From Tilletiopsis washingtonensis (lineage: Eukaryota; Basidiomycota; Exobasidiomycetes; Entylomatales): a stretch of DNA of 64,000 bases. The notes beneath the pieces are model-generated. The model had not been told where the DNA came from and ran no database searches. It saw only the letters and a list, made by a program, of their open reading frames with translations. The stretch spans positions 240,845-304,844 of the forward strand of contig NW_020312017.1 in assembly GCF_003144115.1 (NCBI RefSeq), given 5' to 3'. Positions 21,081-62,222 of this stretch are shown one piece after another. The position numbers and the translations under genes were made by a program. Each line of letters begins with the position of its first letter. Position 1 is the stretch's first letter.

Positions 21081-23037
21081 TCACTCTGCAGCTGGCTCGG
21101 CGGCATCGCGACGGACCTCTTGCGGCGATGGCTCCGTGCGCTTCGCCTCGTCGTGGTGCTTGTCTGCGTCGCTGCGAGGGAGCGCGACGTCGCGCACAGC
21201 GTGGATGAGGGGCTCGCGCTTGTCGACGTCATCATGGTCGGTGTCGATGATGTCGCGACGACCGCCCGAGCCGTTCCAGTCGGTCGCGCACCACCAGCAG
21301 CTGAAGGGCGAGTGCTTGTCGGCGTCAAGGTCGCGGCGAGTGCCAGAGCCGACGAAGTTGTGAGCCTTCCACCAGCTGAAAGGCTCGCGCTTGATGGCGG
21401 TGACGTCGCGGCGAGAGCTGGAGCCGGTGAAGCGATGCTCCTTGTCCCAGGTGTGTACGTCACGCCTGTCGAGCGGCTGGCCGCCGGCGGTGGCGTTGCG
21501 CTCCGAGAGGTGCTGTTCGCCAGCCTCACGGCGAGGCGGGGCCCAGGGGCGCGGGAACCATGGGCTGAAAGGGCTGCGCGGCGCCAGCCAGGCGTCGTCG
21601 ATGTCACGGCGGTGAGAGCCCCACGGACCCCACTGGCCCGTCCACCACGAGCCGAATGGCTCGCGCACTGCCAGCGAGGCGTCTTCGGTGGCACGGCGGT
21701 GAGAGCCCCACGAGCCCCACTGGCCCACCCACCACGTGCCGAATGGCTCGCGCGCTGCGAGCGAGGCGTCTTTGGTGTCACGGCGATGAGCCCACTTGCC
21801 GGTCGTGCGCCAGACGGCGAAAGGGCTACGGCCTGCGAGTGTTGCATCGTCGGCGGCGCGGCGGTGACCGCCCCAGCGGCCCTTGTCGAGCCACCAGTTG
21901 AACGGGTTGCGGGTTGCGAGTGTCGGGTCGGCGGCGTCGCTGCGGCGACCGTTCCAACGACCAGCATCGAGGAGCTTCCAGCTGAACGGACCACGGCTTG
22001 CGAGGTGGGCGTCGGCAGCGTCACTGCGGCCGCCGATCCAGGGACCAGAAGTGCGCCACCAGCCGAAAGCGGCGCGGCGTGCGAGCGCTGCGCCGAGCGT
22101 GTCGAAGCGGCGACCGATCCAACGACCGGAGTCCTTCCACCACGCGAAGGGGCTGCGACCGATCCAGCGATGAGTGCCCTTCATCGTGGCGAACGGGCTG
22201 CGACGGTCACCGGCAGGGTGATGCCACCATGGGCTGGCCCACAGGCTGGCGCTGAACGGCGCACGGCTTGCGACCTTGTGGGACACGCCGGGATTGTCGA
22301 AGCTGCTGGACGGCGGCTGGTGGACAATGTCGCGCTTACGGTGGCCGGCGCCCCAGTTGAAGGGGCCCTTGACGAAGATCCAACCGAACGGTCCGCGCTT
22401 TGCGGGCGAGACGGCGTCGAAGTCGCGCTTGTGGCCGGCCGACCAGGCCTGGCTGCCCTTGATGTCGACCATGCCGAAGGCGTTGGCATCGCGCTCGGCC
22501 GGCGAGACGTCGCGGAGGTGCGTAGCAGCATTGGCTTGAGCGGCGCTGGTCCCAGGAGTTGCACCGGCCCAGATGTCGACCCAGCTCGTGGCGAGGCTGA
22601 ACGGCGAGCGCTTTGCTGCAGAGTGATCGTCGCGAGAGAAGCCGGCCGTCGAACCTACGGAACCGACGGCCGCGCCGTCACCGACACTGGTAAAGCCGAC
22701 CATGTTGGCCGCCGCGAACACGGCGAAGGGCTTGCGCTTCACCGGCGAGTTGTCACGACGACCATCTCCGGCGCTGGTCCAGCCGACCTTGCTCTCCTCC
22801 CACAAGGCGAACGGCTCGCGCTTCGCCGCCGAGTCTTGCGGCGCCACGGCGTCGCGAGGCAGGATCGGTGCGCCGACAAACGGTCCGAAGAGCGGCCTCT
22901 GCGATTGAGTCAGCACAATGCAGAGCGCGAGGAGCCAGACGCTGCAACACAGGACTGACCTCATGCTCAGCGGGGACCGGCAGCGCAAAGACACACGAGG
23001 CCACGACGAGCAGGCAGACGACGATGTAGAGACGCAT
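21081..23037 (-). CDS. Secreted Kex2-processed repeat protein (Rep1/KEP-like), aromatic PF..W peptides
   Basis: Two exons (23037-22960, 22898-21081) give a 631-aa precursor. It begins with a clear signal peptide (MRLYIVVCLLVVASCVFA, then LPVPA). The rest is an array of about 17 peptides that each start x-PF (or x-AF) and contain two or more tryptophans, such as EPFALWEESKVGW, SPFAWWKDSGRWIG and EPFGSWWTGQWGPW. Each ends in G-x-RR or KR and is separated from the next by a short acidic spacer (for example DASLAAR). KR/RR sites fit Kex2 cleavage in the Golgi. Central copies are near-identical with an exact 87-nt period; N- and C-terminal copies are more diverged. Size, secretion and dibasic layout resemble Ustilago maydis Rep1 repellent and the fungal KEP class, but I see no close sequence match by memory. 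No CAAX box, so not a basidiomycete lipopeptide pheromone. Function unknown: repellent, surface peptide or signal. Confidence 0.82.
21605..21778 (-). repeat. Exact 87-nt period tandem copies in repeat-protein gene
   Basis: Two adjacent 87-nt units (21605-21691, 21692-21778) differ at few positions and encode the EPFGTWWVGQWGSW and EPFGSWWTGQWGPW peptides. Flanking units (up to about 22240) keep the same plan at slightly different lengths. This points to recent unequal exchange within the array. Confidence 0.85.
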
Positions 23038-53443: not shown

Positions 53444-56400
53444 TCAGGAGACGCGCACCACGATGGCGCCCGGCTCCTCGTCGGCGCCGCGGATGACGGC
53501 GTCAAAGGCGCGCGGGGCGTCGGAGAAGGCGAGGATGGAGCGCAGGCGCGGGCAGATGTCGCCCGCCTCGGCGGCCGCGCGCACGGCCTCGAGGGCCTCG
53601 CGGCAGTCCTCGCCCTGGTCGGCGCCCACCCACTCGTAGCCGATGTTCTTGCGGTCTTTCTTGAAGAAGCTGCGCTTGAGCGAGCGCAGATGCGAGCGCA
53701 GGTTCGGGTTGGCCGTGTTGTGCTCGTCGCCGAAGCACGTGGCGAACTGGCCGTCGTTGGCGAGGATGCGGCGCGCGGCGTCGTACATGCGGCGGCCGCC
53801 GATCGTGTCGATGACGAGGTCGAAGCTCGACTCGTGCAGCGAGTTGAGCGCCCACAGCGGCTCGCCGATGACGACCTCGTGCGCGCCGTTGGCCTCGCAC
53901 ACGGCGACGCCGTCCGAGATGCTCTCGGGGCAGTGCGCGACGATGATGAGGCCCAGCGGCGCGCAGCCCTGCATCGTCAGCAGGCCGATGCCGTCGTGCG
54001 CGTTCATGATGAGCACGCGCGCGCCACGCGCCAGCTGCGAGGCGTGGTTCGTCATGAGCTGGTACGCCATGACGCCCGTCGACGGCAGCGCGGCGATCTG
54101 CTCCGTGGTGAGGCAGTCCTCGGGCGCCTTGGCGACGAGGTCCTGCTGGATGACCATAAACTCGGCGAGCGCGCCGCACTTGCGGCTCGACTGCAGGCCG
54201 AAGACGATGTCGCCCTTGCGCATGCGCTTCACCTCCCAGCCCGTCTCCATGACGCGGCCGCAGAAGCTGCGGCCGGGCACGAAGCCGTACGCCGACTCGG
54301 TGCGCACCTTCTCGCGCAGCAGCATGCGGTCGAGCTCGTCGATGGACACGGCGATGATCTGGCACAGCACCTGCGTCGAGCTGATCTTGCGCGGCGGCGG
54401 CGTGTGCGCCGTGAGCGCCATCTTGGTGTTCGCCAGATCCTCCTGCAGCTGCTCCGGCAGGGCGTCCATGGACGCGCGCCCAGTGACGGCACCAGTGCCC
54501 TGCGTCGCATCAATCGAGGCACGCTTGCCGCTGCGGCTCGGGCTGCGGAAGGCGCCGCTCGATATCGAGATCGTGTTCATCGTGGTGCGCGCGTAGAGGC
54601 GGTCGTCGATCGTGTTGCTGGCGCGCATCGGGTCGCGCGGCCGATACGCGGACGACGAGACGGGCACTGACGGCAGGCTCATTGCCGACTGCGATGCAGA
54701 AGGACTCGAGTCTCGCGAGACGAACGACTCGGCGTATGGCCCGCGCGAGTGCCCGTCCAGGCTCATCGGCCCCGGCGAAGCGTCGATGCGCAGCGCGGGC
54801 GAGTTGCGGCCGTCGACGCTGAGACGCGAGCGCGGCACTGGCAGGTACGTGTCCGTCGACGAGCCGAGCGGCGCATCGCGCACCATGGCGGGGGTGACGC
54901 CGCTGACGATGCTGCTGTTGCTGCGCGTGGCCGTGCCGAGGTTCTGTGACACCATCGAGTACGAGCTGAGGCTCTGGGCGTAGGGGCTCATCTGGCTTGG
55001 GTCCTGCGCCATGTACGGGCTCTCGGCGACGCTGAGACGACGCGGCGAGTGCGAGCCAGGGCTGGGTGCACCGCTGTGCGGGCTGAGGCTGATCGGGCTG
55101 CTCTCCCACTCGCTGATGGCGGACATCACGGCCGTCCGCGCCTGGCCGCTCGGTCCGGCGGAGAGCGTGCGGATCTTGCGTGGCTGGTTGGGCTGCAGGC
55201 CACCGCGCGAGGATGAGGCCTCTGAGAAGGTGCTCGACACCGCGCTTCCCGCCGCAGAGGACACGACGGAGCCTGGCGCAGAGACACTGAGCGTCGGAGA
55301 AGCGGAGCGCGAGATCGAGTGTGCTGCAGAAGCGTTGGAGCCGAAGTCAGATCCAGCGTCGCTTCCTCGTCGAAGCTGCTCGGGCACAAGAGGCACGGGG
55401 GGCACTCCAGCCTGCTGTAGGGATGAAGTGTGAGCGACAGAAAGTCGGACTGGCGGACCATGCACTTACCGCTGCGCTGGAGGAGCCCGACTTGCTCTTA
55501 CTGGAGCTCTTCTTGCTCTTCTTGCGCCGCGGGACGGTGTCGTCGGGCAGGATGATCGCAGTCGTGTCCGAGGTCACGCTGGAGCGGCGCTGCGACGAGC
55601 TGGCAACGGTCGTGGCGAACATGCCCGGCGGCAGGCTGAGCCCCTTGCCCTGGTAGAGCTGATAGCCGGCGGGCGGCGCAGAAGCGCGCTTCGCGGTGCT
55701 CGTGGAAGCAGAGCGCGAGAGCGAGTCGCCCTTCTTCGAGCGCTGGCTGGCAGAGCGCTGCATAGCACCGGCCGGCGACGCGGGCGCCTCGGCGTCCTCG
55801 GCGAGCGAGCCGACACCGTCTGCCGGCGGGCGCGAAGCGCCGAAGGAAGGTCGCGTCTCCAGAGCTGGCGGCGTCGGCGGAATCAGGTTGACGTTCACCA
55901 CAGCTGCGCCGAAGCTCGGCTCAGAGCGGTCGCCGCGCGGCGTGATGACCGAGCCGTACGAGGGCTCGCCGCGCGGCACGGCCAGCGGAGTGGCATCGTC
56001 GTGCAGCGGCGGCATGGCGACGCTGTCCTCGAAGCTCGGCGCCGGCGGCATGGGCAGACGCTTCTCCGGCCCCGGCAGCTGGAAGCCGTTCTCGCGCGAG
56101 GGAGACGAGTCAATGCGGCGCTCTGCCAGCGGCTTGCGCTCGACGAGAATGTCAGAGGCGCCGGGCGTCGACAAGACGGTGCTTGCCGCGCTCGAGCCGG
56201 ACCACAGCTCGGACGACGGAGGCGGGCTGAGTGCTGCCTCGCGTGCGATCGACGGCGCTGCGTTCGCCGTCCGCGTGCTGGGAGGCATCGCGACGTCGTC
56301 GTCGCTCTCGTCTTCCGAGTCGGCGTCCGAGCCGGAGGACTCGTCGTCCATGAGAGGGGCGCGCTGGGCGACGACTGGCACGGGCGCATGCGAGATGGAC

Positions 56401-59400
56401 GTGCCGTTCGTCGCAGCACTCGACGCAGCCTTCTCGGGAGCTGTGCGCGGAGAGGCGGCGGTCAGTTCACAAGCCAGCACGGCGTTCCGGTGTGCGTGAC
56501 TCACTCTGCGCGGCGGCCGCCAGATCGCCGACTGTGTAGAAGTGCGACTCGGTCATGCCCGTCGCCGTGCCGTTCGAGGCCAGCGAGTCGTCGCCGTTGA
56601 TGGTCCCGTCAGACACATCGGCACGAGCGTCCATGTACTCGGATCTGAGCGACGGCAGCGCGCCGGTAGGGGCCGAGAGAGCGTCCAGCTCAGACGAGCC
56701 TGTGGAAGCGCGGTTCGGCGAGGGAGAGAGCCAGCTGGGCCGCTCGTCGTCCTCTGCGAACGGCGTGTTGCCCTCGTCGGCCGACTCCCAACGCTCCTCG
56801 CCGTCCGTCTCCGACATGCCTGGCGAGACTGGCCCGATCGAGGTCGAGCGAGGAAGCAGCAATGGCCTGTCCCGTACCGGCGCGTCCGCGCTGACCGCAG
56901 GAGCAACAGCTGCTGCCGGAGCGCTCGAGGCTGCCACAGCCGGCACCACGATTGCGGGCACTGCCGTGGCAGCCACGATGGCAGCGGGAGCGTCCACTTG
57001 CTTCGGCGTCTCGACGGGCTTCTGAGCCTTCACCGGCTTGGGAGCCTCGACAGACTTGGCCGCCTTCGCACTCTGCCGCTCAGCCTTGCGTTCGGCCTTC
57101 GCGATCTTGCTGTCCTTCTTGGCCCAGGCCGACGGCGGACTGGCAGGCACCTCGCCGCCGGCAGTCTTGCCGCTGGCGAACGAGGCAGCCTTCGCCTTGG
57201 CCTTCTTCTCGCGCTTCTCCTCCTTCTCCTCTTTCGAAGGGCCGAAGGAGAAGAGCGTGTCGGCGAGCGACTTGGAGTGGCGCAGCGGCTTCAGGGCCGA
57301 CTTTGCCGGCGCAGGCTTGTCCTTGCTCAGCGTCGCAGAGGCCGTGGCCTCGGGCGAGGCGGGAGTCGAGCTGTTGCTGCTCGATGACAGGCGCGAGCTC
57401 GTGCGCTGGGTCGGGGAGGCCAGCAGTGCCGACGACATGCTGGCGGGCAGCGTGCTGCGCAGATCCTCGCCAGACGCCTTGAGCTTGGGCTTAGACGGCG
57501 AGTCGGCCTCTAGCCTGCCCTGCGAGATGGGCAGGCCGCCGAGCGATTCGGGCTGCGGCGGCTTCGAGGCACGCGGCCTGTCCATGATGCTCTGCCGACG
57601 CGGCGGCGACACGGGCGCAGCAGCTTCGCCGCCCCGAGGAGTGGACGAGAAGAGGCTGCGGAAGCGGCCCGTGTGCGTTGCAGTAGACGTCTTGTCTGCT
57701 GAGGACGACGCCGAGACGGCGCTGGCGCCGGACTCTTCCCGGCGATGCGCCCGGCTCGCAGCGCTGCGGCGACTGCGCATGCTCTGGTTGTCGTCGGCAG
57801 CCATGCCGAGCAGCCAGGCGGCCGCAATGCTCGGGGCAAGGGCGCTCTCGAGGCTTCGCGTCTCTGCCGCGCCGGAAGAGCCCGCAGCAATGGCGTCTGC
57901 ACGCTCCTGGCGGACCTGCATCATCGCGTCGGACGCGCCAGCAGTGGAGCTGCCAGCAGGAGCGGCTGCAGTGGCGGAACCAGCTGCCATCGCCTGCCTC
58001 TTGGCGGCAGAGAGGTCGAGGCCGAGGCGATCAATCGTCGAGTCCGAGTAGTTCGCGGTGCCGAAGCGGTCGAGGAGGCCAGTGAGGCTCTCGCCGAAGA
58101 AGTCATCGCCGACCTTGAGGTTGCGCAGGCGATCCGCATCAGCGCGCGCCCGGGCCTTGAGCTCTGCGTCGTCGCCTGAGCCGCCCTCGCCGGCCGAGTC
58201 CGAGTCCGAGTCGCGCATTCGCATGCGCCGCGACGACGCCGTGCGGGACGCGCCGCCAGCCACCGAGCCGCGCAGCATCGCACTCATGGCAAGCGAGCCG
58301 CCCAGACTGAGGTCAGACAGGCGGCGGCGCAGCGTGGGCGGGCGCGTGCTTGCCGCGCCCCGCGACGTGTCGTCCGATGCTGCGTCGTCGTCGCTGCCAT
58401 CTGCGCCAAGCGCCTCCGGCGCGATGCGCACTTTCGAGGATGCGCCGAGCGAGCGCGCCGAGGGTGCACCCGGCGCGCCAGCCACGCCTTGCTTGGCGCT
58501 GAGCAGCGCGGTGACCGCAAGCGGCGCGTCAGCATCGGCGCTGCGCGTAGGGGCAATGATGGACTCGTCGTCGCTCGAGCTGTCCTCGTCGTCCGCTGCA
58601 GCACGAACCGGCCCGTCGACGCTGATAGCAGGCGTGACAGCTGTTGCGCGCTGCGCACCGGCGGCCTGCGACGAGCCGCTGACGTCGCTCTTGCGGATCG
58701 CCGACTCGAAGGCCGAGTGCTTGACGGGCGAGGGCAGGTGCGGCCGCATCTCGTGCCCGGCGTTGGAGCTGCCTTCCTCCTCCTCTTCGGCGACGACGTC
58801 GAGCATCTGCCGCTCCTCGTCGCTCGAGTCCTCCTCGCTCGACTCGTCGCTGCCGCTCTCGATCGTGCCCGACGAGTCGCCGTCTGGCGGCGTTGGCGGA
58901 AGGTCGCGATTCAGAGAGGCCGCTGAGATCGGCCGCGGCGGCTGTGGCGACATGGCGCGCGGAGGCGGAGACATGGCACGCGCAGGCGGAGACATGGCAC
59001 GCGGCGGCGGCGACATGGCGCGAGGCGGCGGCGACATGCTGCGCGGCGGCTCTGCCTGCGCAGCGACCTGGGGCATCGTCTGCTGCACAGCCTGCGCGTG
59101 GACTTGCGCGTGCTGCTGGAGCGCGATCGTGTGCTGCTGCAGCGCAGACTGGCTGCCGGGCGGCAGGTGGTGCTGCAGAGCTTGCGCGTGCTGCTGGAGC
59201 GCCAGGGCCTGCGCATGCTGCTGCAGCGCAAGGGTTTGCGCATCGAGCGGATGTGTCGGCAGTGCGGCCGAGGCAGGCGGCTGCGAGACTGCCAAAGCGG
59301 GGTCGAGGATGACAGATCCGGGCCGCAAGCTGCCCGGCACGAGCGCCTCGCTGACGGGCCGCTCCTGCGGCGGAAGGCTCTGCCCGATGACCTGCTGCGC

Positions 59401-60519
59401 AGCGCGCGCGATGAGGTCTTGGTGGATGACGCCAGGATCGCGCTGCGTCTGCTCGTACAGCGCGTCCTGCTCGAGCTCCTTCTGCACTCGCGCCGCAGCA
59501 GTACTCCGCCGGCGGGCCAACTGCTCAGCGGGCGGCGCCGGAGACGCAGCGCGTGCAGCGACTGCGGCCAGACTGTTGCCCTCCCACGCCTGCGCCGTGT
59601 CCGTGCCGTTCATGCTGTTGATGAAGGCCTTCCAGTCTTGTGACGAGGTCGCAGGCCCGCCGCTGCCGTGGCGCTTCCGGACCGGAGAGCCAGAAGCGGC
59701 AGCTGCAGCGAGATTCGGATTCGACACGGCGCTCAGACGCTTCGAGCGTCCCGACACGGAGCCCGAGACTGAGCCTGCCTGCGAGCCCATGGCAGATGGG
59801 CTGCTGCCGAGCGGCATCGACGGCGACGGACGCACGAGGCTCGGCGCCTGCTTGCCCAGCGGAGCCACGCCGTTCGATGGCAGCCGGCCAGGCGAGGCAT
59901 TGGCGTTCATGGCACGCAGCGCCTGCGCATCGTGTCGCGGCAGCGGCGGCATGCTGCTGCTGCCGGAGCGAGGCACGCCCGCAGTCGGCGAGCCGCCAAA
60001 GTCACTGCGCGGCGCCTGCCGCACTTTTGTGCCCGCGCCAATGCCGGCCATGCTCTTGTCCCAGGCGCCCGGAGCGGCCGGCTCGGGCTCGCTGAAGATG
60101 CTGTCGCCGGCGATGCTCGGCGCGCGGCTGCTGCGGCCAAAGCCTCGCAAGCTTCCCGCGTCCCACCAGCGGCTCTTGCGGCCCATGCTGCTGTCGGCCA
60201 CGCTGCCGGCAATGGTGCTGCTGTTGTCGTCGAGCACGCTGTTGGAGCGGCCGCGCCCGAAGCTGCGCCCAAAGTTGCGCAAGCTGCCGCCGCCGGCGAC
60301 GGAGTTGGCGCGCGAGGAGCGCCCCACGGTGCCGCTCTTGCGGCTGAACATGGAGCCCGAGAGGATGTTGGGCGAGCCGGGCGCATTGGGCAGGTCCGAC
60401 GGCGCCGTCCATCCTGCACGCGACGGCGCGCGGCTGCGCGAAGGCGTCTCAGGGTCCGCCGTGTACGTCTGCGACGGCCGGTTGAGGATGGAGTCGAGGA
60501 TGGAGTGGCCGCGCGGCAT
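53444..60519 (-). CDS. Giant disordered protein with C-terminal MDR (Ast1-like) domain
   Basis: Three exons (60519-56505, 56440-55470, 55414-53444) give 2318 aa, one of the largest proteins that could be expected in such a genome. Residues 1 to about 1990 are low-complexity: serine/alanine/proline-rich with many SRAPS and RSS motifs at the start (MPRGHSILDSILNRPSQTY), a glutamine/histidine region (QQHAQALALQQHAQ), tandem RAMSPPP repeats, acidic serine runs and a lysine-rich stretch (KEEKEEKREKKAKAKA). Residues about 1997-2318 form an MDR fold: VPGRSFCGRVMETGWEVKRM, the nucleotide-loop region ARVLIMNAHDGIGLLTMQGC, LVIDTIGGRRMYDAARRILA and a C-terminus ending GAIVVRVS. Glycine pattern of the cofactor loop is altered (NAHDGIG), so catalysis is doubtful. 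The MDR part recalls yeast Ast1/Ast2 (Pma1 targeting), but the long disordered N-region is not found there. Confidence 0.8.
58949..59050 (-). repeat. 21-nt tandem repeat encoding RAMSPPP units
   Basis: Five imperfect 21-nt units (gacatggcgcgcggaggcgg type) in the giant MDR-fusion gene, encoding MSPPPRA heptads. In-frame period, so the protein repeat expands or shrinks without frameshift. Confidence 0.85.
59050..59245 (-). repeat. Glutamine/histidine/alanine-coding CTGCTG-rich repeat
   Basis: Imperfect repeats of ctgctgcagcgc-type units on the plus strand encode LQQHAQA-type blocks on the minus strand of the giant gene. Confidence 0.75.
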
Positions 60520-62222
60520 CTTGGCGAGCGCCGCCGCTAGGCAAGGGATATGCGGGGTGGAAGGAGTCGTCGCTCGACGCCGGGCTAAGGATAGGCGTGC
60601 TGCAGGGGCATGAATAGGCGCCGGCAAGACAGAAGAGCGACGTGCGGCAGGCTGCGAGGGACGGACAGTCGTACGAGGGAGCGGCACAGCACAGCACGGG
60701 ACAGCGACTGCGGCGCTCTTCGTCGGCGAAGAGGGAGGTGGTGAGGAGAGGAGGAAGGAGCGGCTGCGGGCTGGAGCGGGCTCTGCTGCTGCAGGCGGCC
60801 AGCTGCATCGGTGACAGGCAGCAGCTGCAGCAGGCCGCCGGCGCCGCGCATCGCTGCACCCTGCCCGCCCTCGCCGCCGCGCGCCTTCTCGAGCGCTGCC
60901 ATCGCGCATCCGCTCCGTCCTCCTCTCCGGCGCTGCTGGGCTGCTGCTGCACGCATCCAGCGTCCGGCATCCCGATGCGCAGCAGCACAGCAGAGCGCAG
61001 ACCCAGCGCTCAGCGTCAGTCGTTGCGGCAGCGCCTTGCTCTCGCACGCTGCGGCGGCTTCGGCGGCCCTGCACCCCGGCGCACGCGGCGCGGGCCCTGG
61101 CGCCGCCGCGCTTACGGCGCGCAAGAGCCGAGAGACGCTGCGCTGCCCGCTGCGGCCGAAGTGCGGTTGAGCGCTCCACGCTTGCTCTTGCTCCCGCAGA
61201 GGATCTGCGTGCCGGCCTCCGCGCCGAGGAGGGCCAGCGTTCTGCTGCAGGCGCAGCACCAGCACCAGCGCGTGGAGGCCTCCGTCCCAAGATCGCAGCA
61301 GCGCCGCGTCTGCATCCTGCGCAGCCGCCTCTTGCTGCACCTTGACGCGCGCGGCGTCCGCCAGAGCAGCTCCGGCGCTGCAGCCGCGCTCCGCAGTCGC
61401 CGCGCCGGCTCCGGAGCGCAGCATCCAGCACACCAGCAGCCAGCCATGTTGCGACGGGACAAAGAGAGAGGGCGAGCGACGAGGAAGGCACGATGGGCGA
61501 ATGGCGAATCGGCCAAAGTGCAGCGCTCCGGCGCTTCAGGGTGCTTCAGGGGCCGGGCCGGCGGCTCTCCTCGCCCCACACAGCGACGAGGGCGCTGATC
61601 GGCAGCTGCGAGCCGCAACAGAGGCGAGCTCACGTCCACGAGATGCCGTGGGCTGCGCTTTGCGAGAGCCACGACTCTGCGGCGGATGTCCAGCGAGGTG
61701 CCGCGAGGGTGTCCAGGCGCAGGCGGCTCGCCTGCGCTCTGCCGCGGCACCCGGCAGCGCAGCGCCGCGGCTGCAGCGCAGCAGTGCAGCTCTCCTGCTG
61801 GCCCGCGCCTCGTTTGGCGATCTCGCAGCGCCGCAGCGGGCCCGCCAGTCCGCGAACGGCGTCGATCGGCTGTCGAGCAGCAAGAGGCGCCACACCAACG
61901 GCTCCGGCGTCCGCCGTTTGTCCGCGACGCCGCAAAGCACAGCCGCAGCAGCACCCAGGCAGATCCCGACGCCGAAGCCGCGGCTGAGCCCTGAACGCCT
62001 GAGACCGGCGCCGCACTCCTCTGTCCGAGAAGGACCAGCTGCGACAGCTGCGACGGCTTCGGCTCGGCCGAGGCGTGAAGTAATGCGCTAACAATGCCCC
62101 GGCCCCGATCGCAGCGCTGTCTGCCATCACCCCGCAGAACATCGTCCGAAGTGGTGGGTGTATTGCAGCGCATCGCGTGACAGAGGAGTACAGAAGTGAG
62201 CGGCAGTGCGGACTTTGCCTCT
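60520..62222. other. Intergenic between giant MDR-fusion start and TIM50 stop (1703 bp)
   Basis: Promoter and leader of the giant gene plus 3' flank of TIM50, both on the minus strand. Rich in GCAGC/GCTGC (for example 60790-60840, 61690-61790). Long open frames on both strands have alanine/arginine/cysteine-rich, motif-free translations and I do not accept them as genes. A CTAG acceptor-like site lies just before the giant gene's ATG at about 60537, so a leader intron is possible. Confidence 0.4.

Follow-up and report, generated by a model that had tools for sequence, protein, structure and literature searches.

A candidate Kex2-processed repeat precursor with seventeen different tryptophan-rich peptides in Tilletiopsis washingtonensis

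What might a fungal gene make when it encodes, behind an apparent signal peptide, a long series of short aromatic segments set between basic residues and acidic spacers? The question is raised by a locus in a 64,000-nucleotide stretch of the Tilletiopsis washingtonensis genome, the whole of which was analyzed and is referred to here as the window. A preliminary description, made from the letters, had proposed about 17 aromatic PF..W peptides in a secreted precursor, and this is borne out: we count 17 cores behind a signal-peptide-like N terminus. Judged from sequence, the product is well supported as a putative Kex2-processed, secreted multi-peptide precursor. Below, we describe the gene, the array, the predicted maturation, and the relatives and neighbors of the gene, and then weigh what the peptides may do.

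Gene model and strand

The precursor gene lies on the minus strand from 23037 to 21081, and the coordinates first given for it (21081–23037) match it exactly. In the spliced reading it encodes 631 amino acids, in the following parts.

22960..23037, minus strand: exon 1, with the start codon, the putative signal peptide MRLYIVVCLLVVASCVFA and LPVPAEHE; signal cleavage likely after A18 (by eye); Kyte-Doolittle 10-residue maximum 3.39
22899..22959, minus strand: probable 61-nt intron, GTCAGT...CTGAC...CAG
21081..22898, minus strand: exon 2, with the entire repeat array and the stop codon; residues 27–631

The frame that opens at ATG 23037 reads MRLYIVVCLLVVASCVFALPVPAEHE, and the 61-nt stretch at 22899–22959 joins it to a 605-codon frame that ends with the stop codon at 21083–21081. 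Many GT..AG pairs would keep the frame; this one was picked because it retains the end of the signal peptide and has a branch-like CTGAC. Its donor, GTCAGT, differs from the GTGAGT of the neighboring ribosomal L1-family gene. The unspliced alternative starts at ATG 22964–22962, near the end of exon 1; it also gives a hydrophobic leader, and it is the gene model (627 amino acids) that JGI gives for P0001, the one relative found (see below). The repeat array and its likely secretion are independent of the choice between the two. Because in both readings the array follows a hydrophobic leader in the same frame, alternative starts or intron retention at 22899–22964 could still give a secreted product. 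Past the leader, the precursor has no strongly hydrophobic segment.

On the opposite strand, a 612-amino-acid frame is open from 21120 to 22958, which raises the alternative that this is the real gene and the array only its shadow. GC content by codon position peaks at the third position in the minus frame (0.78) and at the first in the plus frame (0.80), and in the known neighbors NOG1 and the ribosomal L1-family gene it is also highest at the third. The plus-strand frame is thus best read as the shadow. Given that the minus strand is also the one that carries the putative signal peptide, the predicted cleavage sites and the JGI model, a real plus-strand gene is scarcely credible.

Anatomy of the repeat array

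Cores were recognized by the pattern (X-P/A)n-F-[A/G/S/N]..., that is, a Phe preceded by one or two dipeptides of the form X-P or X-A and followed by a small residue. The pattern gave 18 stretches, and GPFVGAPILP (residues 31–40) was excluded because no basic residue precedes it; the 17 cores counted are as follows.

22761..22817, minus strand: core 1, EPFALWEESKVGWTSAGDG
22635..22733, minus strand: core 2, KPFAVFAAANMVGFTSV..., long, no Trp
22515..22607, minus strand: core 3, SPFSLATSWVDIWAG..., long
22431..22490, minus strand: core 4, DANAFGMVDIKGSQAWSAGH; two X-A dipeptides ahead of F
22341..22394, minus strand: core 5, GPFGWIFVKGPFNWGAGH
22206..22262, minus strand: core 6, APFSASLWASPWWHHPAGD
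22158..22199, minus strand: core 7, SPFATMKGTHRWIG
22113..22154, minus strand: core 8, SPFAWWKDSGRWIG
22029..22073, minus strand: core 9, AAFGWWRTSGPWIGG; X-A replaces X-P ahead of F
21948..21992, minus strand: core 10, GPFSWKLLDAGRWNG; HLASR before
21864..21908, minus strand: core 11, NPFNWWLDKGRWGGH; TLATR before
21786..21827, minus strand: core 12, SPFAVWRTTGKWAH; TLAGR before
21699..21749, minus strand: core 13, EPFGTWWVGQWGSWGSH; SLAAR before; within the 87-nt tandem array
21612..21662, minus strand: core 14, EPFGSWWTGQWGPWGSH; SLAVR before; within the 87-nt tandem array
21534..21575, minus strand: core 15, SPFSPWFPRPWAPP; WLAPR before
21339..21386, minus strand: core 16, EPFSWWKAHNFVGSGT
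21261..21311, minus strand: core 17, SPFSCWWCATDWNGSGG; KH before in the window, KR in P0001

No two of these are identical. The Phe is invariant and is followed by A, G, S or N in all 17. The peptides had been said to begin x-PF, which is accurate for the 15 cores with Pro before Phe and fails for the two that have Ala there; the position preceding that one varies. In the 16 cores listed for codon use, the Pro position is encoded by CCG (7), CCC (3), CCT (3) and CCA (2), and once by GCT (Ala); because all four Pro codons are used, Pro has been conserved despite synonymous change. The length of 12–20 residues first proposed suits 15 of the cores (14–20 residues, X-P included), and two early ones run 33 and 31 residues to the next Arg. 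Nearly all of the Trp (39 of 41) is inside cores, with one to four per core except in core 2. Paired tryptophans hold in the sense that 14 of 17 cores have at least two, and do not hold in the strict sense, as WW is present in only eight and one core has no Trp at all. Tyr occurs only once in the precursor, at residue 4, within the putative signal peptide. At the DNA level, the array includes units repeated in tandem, one of 87 nt (2.4 copies) and one of 45 nt (2.1 copies), plus more diverged copies. The acidic spacers with SLAAR, TLATR and HLASR endings are all confirmed (18.6% D+E, against 5.0% in the 18 core-pattern stretches).

These features were compared with chance by shuffling the sequence from residue 21 onward 5,000 times at constant composition. 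No shuffle matched the counts of PF (17, with 2.25 expected), R-x-PF (14, with 0.24 expected), LAxR (7, with 0.31 expected) or KR (9, with 2.56 expected), and those of RR (15, with 6.74 expected) and WW (8, with 2.54 expected) were each reached in six. KK (0) and RK (2) showed no excess over the same shuffles.

The peptides had also been called amphipathic. In the 15 cores scored, with the long cores 2 and 3 left out, the hydrophobic moment is no higher than in shuffles (Fisher p 0.26 for the helix angle, 0.66 for the strand angle), and an amphipathic helix or strand core was rejected. The scored cores are simply hydrophobic (mean 0.41–0.91), with net charge from −2 to +2. A Trp-zipper-like beta-hairpin, prompted by W...D-x-G-R-W patterns, was also considered and set aside: the AlphaFold2 model of one unit, built from the 17 aligned units, gave a helix instead (mean pLDDT 66.2, pTM 0.18), and at this low confidence no fold is claimed for the unit.

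Cleavage sites and predicted maturation

Each peptide was thought to be bounded by dibasic sites. This is right for most C-terminal sides, where KR or RR follows 13 of 17 cores, and wrong for most N-terminal ones, where KR or RR precedes only seven. Of the others, nine have a single Arg in front of them, which in six belongs to LAxR, and one has KH, so purely dibasic processing had to be abandoned. LAxR precedes the core in seven of seven consecutive units (cores 9–15), where x is R, S, T, G, A, V or P and the unit with R is also dibasic. Arg, Leu and Ala are thus invariant across these units, and the P2 residue is never repeated. More generally, L or V occupies P4 at seven of nine single-Arg sites versus one of seven dibasic sites (Fisher p 0.04; p 0.06 for L alone; both comparisons were chosen post hoc).

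Work on an extended Kex2 motif, LxxR, is said to be that of Outram et al. As described in PMC8528282, Kex2 requires Arg at P1 and prefers Leu at P4, with P2 variable, and the LAxR endings appear to fit this motif. At the six single-Arg LAxR sites, T and P are among the five best P2 alternatives given in that paper, and S, G, A and V fall outside them, which slightly lowers our confidence in the overall explanation given below. Because one core follows KH and one WIGR, some peptides may stay joined, and the inner single Arg of several cores could provide extra cut sites.

All 17 cores start with one or two X-P or X-A dipeptides, 16 after R and one after KH; this count is not independent of the pattern by which cores were recognized, although the excess over shuffles is. 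XP or XA dipeptides after a Kex2 site are described as the Ste13 signature (PMC6339444), and the two cores lacking Pro before Phe match it as well, because they have Ala, the other residue accepted by Ste13. Since a variable X-P or X-A before an invariant Phe looks Ste13-type, Phe is probably the first residue of the mature peptides.

The genome has a kexin gene (S8 and P domains within one open frame) and a DPPIV_N gene, of a DPPIV-type peptidase, whose upstream frames appear, by eye, to encode an acidic tail and a membrane anchor. S10 carboxypeptidase gave nine matches, none singled out as Kex1.

On these grounds, we think the following scheme likely. The precursor would enter the secretory pathway, kexin would cut following KR/RR and LAxR, a Kex1-type carboxypeptidase would remove basic residues from the C termini, and the N termini would lose one X-P dipeptide, or one or two of the X-A kind, to a Ste13-type dipeptidyl aminopeptidase. 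The outcome would be about 17 linear peptides, each different, that start with F-[A/G/S/N] and carry one to four Trp (one core has none); 15 of them would have 12–17 residues, and the acidic spacers would be discarded. Predicted products with N-terminal Phe under this Kex2/Kex1/Ste13 scheme include FGSWWTGQWGPWGSH and FNWWLDKGRWGGH. The original view of a Kex2-processed multi-peptide precursor is therefore retained in its anatomy, its conserved presumed cleavage residues and the kexin gene observed, with the cleavage itself predicted.

Relatives and divergence

Searches of ~5.8 billion proteins with the whole precursor and with residues 260–580 each found one relative, the JGI protein P0001; scoring was confined to the 7,995 and 7,996 candidates with the most shared words and may have missed remote relatives. 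P0001, which is perhaps from the same species, is 93% identical across the whole query. When the two are compared without gaps from the array start, they agree at every one of the first 523 residues and differ at 24 positions, all within the final 82. This divergent segment (21084–21329, residues 550–631) includes the KH before core 17, which is KR in P0001, and may come from an allele that is recombinant or divergent, or from a chimeric assembly. Within it, core 17 is changed at four of 15 positions (S/T, T/S, S/G, G/A) and the next 15 residues at eight.

The window NOG1 is 100% identical to another JGI protein, from which we infer that the JGI data include this species or a strain very close to it. 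Among the best 120 of 7,706 NOG1 matches, named fungal relatives (each over ~85%) are Ceraceosorus bombacis (75%), Exobasidium rhododendri (71%), Parajaminaea phylloscopi (69%), Sympodiomycopsis kandeliae (69%) and Jaminaea rosea (68%); a match filed under the fern Adiantum nelumboides (71%) was taken for probable fungal contamination. Exobasidium, Ceraceosorus and Jaminaea are Exobasidiomycetes, within Ustilaginomycotina. As named Ustilaginomycotina proteins are in the database, yet no relative of the precursor was found among them, a narrow lineage is suggested, within the limits of the word-based search.

The precursor has no Pfam family up to E 1 and no NCBIfam match. Weak matches to PDB sequences (lysozyme, E 0.15; dipeptidyl peptidase 9, E 0.2) were taken as noise. 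Within the genome, the full-length query found itself only and the mid-array query the array only (best candidates, E up to 10). That the core matches no described family thus stands within Pfam, NCBIfam, PDB sequences and the ~5.8 billion proteins.

In units 9–15, spacers share 54% amino acid identity (pN/pS 0.62) and cores 34% (0.90), with similar pS (0.50 and 0.55); the contrast, with cores aligned by hand, is not significant by column permutation (p 0.074). Diversifying selection on the cores is suggested by these ratios and was not adopted at this significance.

Genomic context

Pfam scans of the window covered 28 frames, chosen by length and codon-position GC, plus the spliced precursor. 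Neighbors identified in this way are ribosomal L18, NOG1, lipoyl ligase, an SMC/RAD50-like ATPase, a ribosomal L1-family protein, alpha adaptin, 14-3-3, a Y-family polymerase, a zinc alcohol dehydrogenase and an NLI-type phosphatase, with a weak match to Nup49 below the cut-off. The identified neighbors are housekeeping genes. The remaining frames had no Pfam match, and no peptide-cluster tailoring enzyme or UstYa was found among the 28. On the minus strand, 56470–61545 is a 1,692-codon open frame with no Pfam family up to E 1, overlapped by an 853-codon plus-strand frame that likewise has none. The 673-amino-acid frame at 53447–55465 (minus strand) has zinc alcohol dehydrogenase domains at residues 364–660 and no Pfam match up to E 0.01 in its first 363 residues. 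Elsewhere in the genome, hydrophobin-like matches occur at two places in three pieces, of which one has an internal stop and one is below the cut-off.

Function

We favor, with some confidence, the explanation that the precursor is a Kex2-processed repeat protein (KEP) that would be matured into a surface or extracellular mixture of hydrophobic peptides. The products would act outside the cell as a hydrophobic, aromatic peptide mixture on or near the fungal surface, doing a job comparable to that of the Ustilago maydis repellents by way of a sequence without demonstrated relation to theirs. If processing takes place, a surface role is a tentative proposal, put at somewhat short of an even chance. 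The analogy is loose because Rep1 lacks the Ste13 signature and has longer repeats, and, given the hydrophobin-like matches, repellents would not be needed here to replace hydrophobins. Seventeen different cores are, in our judgment, unusual for a repeat precursor.

Should the basic residues be mere spacer composition, the product would be a Trp-rich protein, secreted or in the wall, that stays uncleaved. Walls commonly contain repeat proteins, and nine of 17 N-side sites are a single Arg; the excess of KR, R-x-PF and LAxR over shuffles, the seven LAxR units that keep Arg, Leu and Ala with P2 always different, and the lack of a Pfam domain in the precursor up to E 1 nevertheless make this reading decidedly improbable. 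A different possibility is that the peptides are signals, F-initiated hormones or quorum signals with a receptor, like ascomycete alpha-pheromones and basidiomycete alpha-like KEPs. Short, aromatic, linear peptides are typical of pheromones. Le Marquer et al. (PMC6339444) also describe X-P/X-A as a mark of candidate peptide hormones. However, all 17 cores differ, with only 34% mean identity in units 9–15, and a set of 17 distinct products speaks against a ligand for one receptor, although the same survey reports variation as frequent among pheromone repeats. STE3 matches are present in the genome, but the best STE2 match is below the cut-off (E 0.033) and the candidate was rejected, since its frames show no receptor by eye; the control genomes gave no match in either search. 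We consider the signal reading unlikely.

An antagonistic or host-directed mixture, in which cores diversify against competitors, hosts or predators while the processing spacers are conserved, seems to us unlikely to about the same degree. It agrees with the greater likeness of spacers than of cores at similar pS and with the 24 differences from P0001 in the last 82 residues after 523 identical ones; yet the spacer/core contrast has a p of 0.074 with hand-aligned cores, in the diverged tail core 17 changes less than the 15 residues that follow it, and the 15 scored cores are near neutral rather than strongly cationic. The surface or extracellular mixture is, in our judgment, most likely when set against signaling and antagonism.

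A further and rather doubtful idea is that of a lineage-specific combinatorial system, in which one precursor would yield ~17 F-x-x-W peptides that vary around a constant Phe/Trp/Gly scaffold, conserved LAxR cassettes would permit core duplication and diversification with maturation intact, and strains of one species would carry strongly different core/spacer segments. If true, such a system would parallel, in a eukaryote, the peptide natural products that have conserved leaders and variable cores, without tailoring enzymes. More immediately, the precursor offers a testable set of Trp-rich peptides, and its tandem units, with free P2 and fixed P4 and P1, make it a substrate for the study of Kex2 specificity in vivo.

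Comparison with known systems

The precursor appears best filed as a KEP, a kind described in 2019–2020 (Le Marquer 2019, PMC6339444; Umemura 2020, PMC7329392). The latter survey reports 7,878 KEPs in 1,345 of 1,461 fungal strains, 2,560 of them without any homolog (PMC7329392). KEP functions are described as largely unknown, and mushrooms have yielded peptides of basidiomycete KEPs that bear Ste13 signatures (PMC9769878). With KEPs, the precursor shares the signal-peptide-like start (a hydrophobic leader in both gene models), fragmentation by KR/RR cutting (25 fragments, where at least four are expected), the lack of a strong hydrophobic segment past the leader, and repeated cores. These cover 308 of 631 residues, where the expectation is at least 15% coverage by a motif that recurs in similar form in three or more fragments; this was judged by the shared motif, not by the FIMO step of Le Marquer or the 40-residue seed score of Umemura. 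It differs in that no two of its cores are identical, and in its sites: the Le Marquer pipeline, as described, cuts at KR, RR or KK only (PMC6339444), whereas nine of 17 cores here follow a single Arg. Such parsing may misplace peptide ends where units use the LxxR Kex2 site. Among the papers listed by the literature searches, titles and abstracts showed no PF..W or Exobasidiomycete KEP (supplementary tables of the KEP surveys, outside its scope, may include the species), and the mix of dibasic and LAxR sites with all-different Trp-rich cores seems to be a variant not found described in that literature.

Ste13-signature KEPs and alpha-pheromone precursors likewise have X-P/X-A right after the cut and before the mature peptide (PMC6339444), as do all 17 cores. 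In these precursors, however, the dipeptides form a long run, as against one here (two in core 4), and the present precursor has heterogeneous cores in a genome with only a sub-threshold STE2 match.

Dikaritins (ustiloxin, asperipin, phomopsin) are also made from secreted Kex2-repeat precursors, and the signal peptide and Kex2 repeats common to the ustiloxin type (PMC7329392) could point to cores cyclized by UstYa-like oxidases. Dikaritins carry a core Tyr for this cyclization, whereas no core here has one; Tyr is reported in 65.6% of repeats, not all, of KEPs with a DUF3328 gene (PMC7329392). The identified neighbors, in the 28 frames scanned, are housekeeping genes, and a genome search for UstYa/DUF3328 gave no match. 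As the control genomes gave none either, the missing Tyr weighs more, and a dikaritin-type precursor is very improbable.

In the effectors with a Kex2-processed pro-domain (K2PP), the LxxR recognition motif is shared (PMC8528282), but in those effectors a protein is freed when its N-terminal pro-domain is removed, and here the motif would serve a tandem peptide array.

The closest comparisons within Ustilaginomycotina are two Ustilago maydis proteins, and by the features given for them (PMC4617103) the precursor is neither. Hum3 likewise has seventeen repeats, imperfect ones, fourteen of them separated by putative Kex2 sites (PMC4617103). Its repeats are 31–36 amino acids long and are followed by a hydrophobin domain (PMC4617103), whereas the present precursor has no Pfam domain at its C terminus or elsewhere. 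Rep1 is, like our precursor, a Kex2 multi-peptide precursor, of similar size (652 versus 631 amino acids; PMC4617103). It is reported without a Ste13 signature (PMC6339444), and its repeats, of 34–55 amino acids, are described as amphipathic (PMC4617103); the repeats here are mostly of 14–20 amino acids (15 of 17 cores), Trp-rich, and start with X-P-F, and their hydrophobic moment, in the 15 cores scored, does not exceed that of shuffles.
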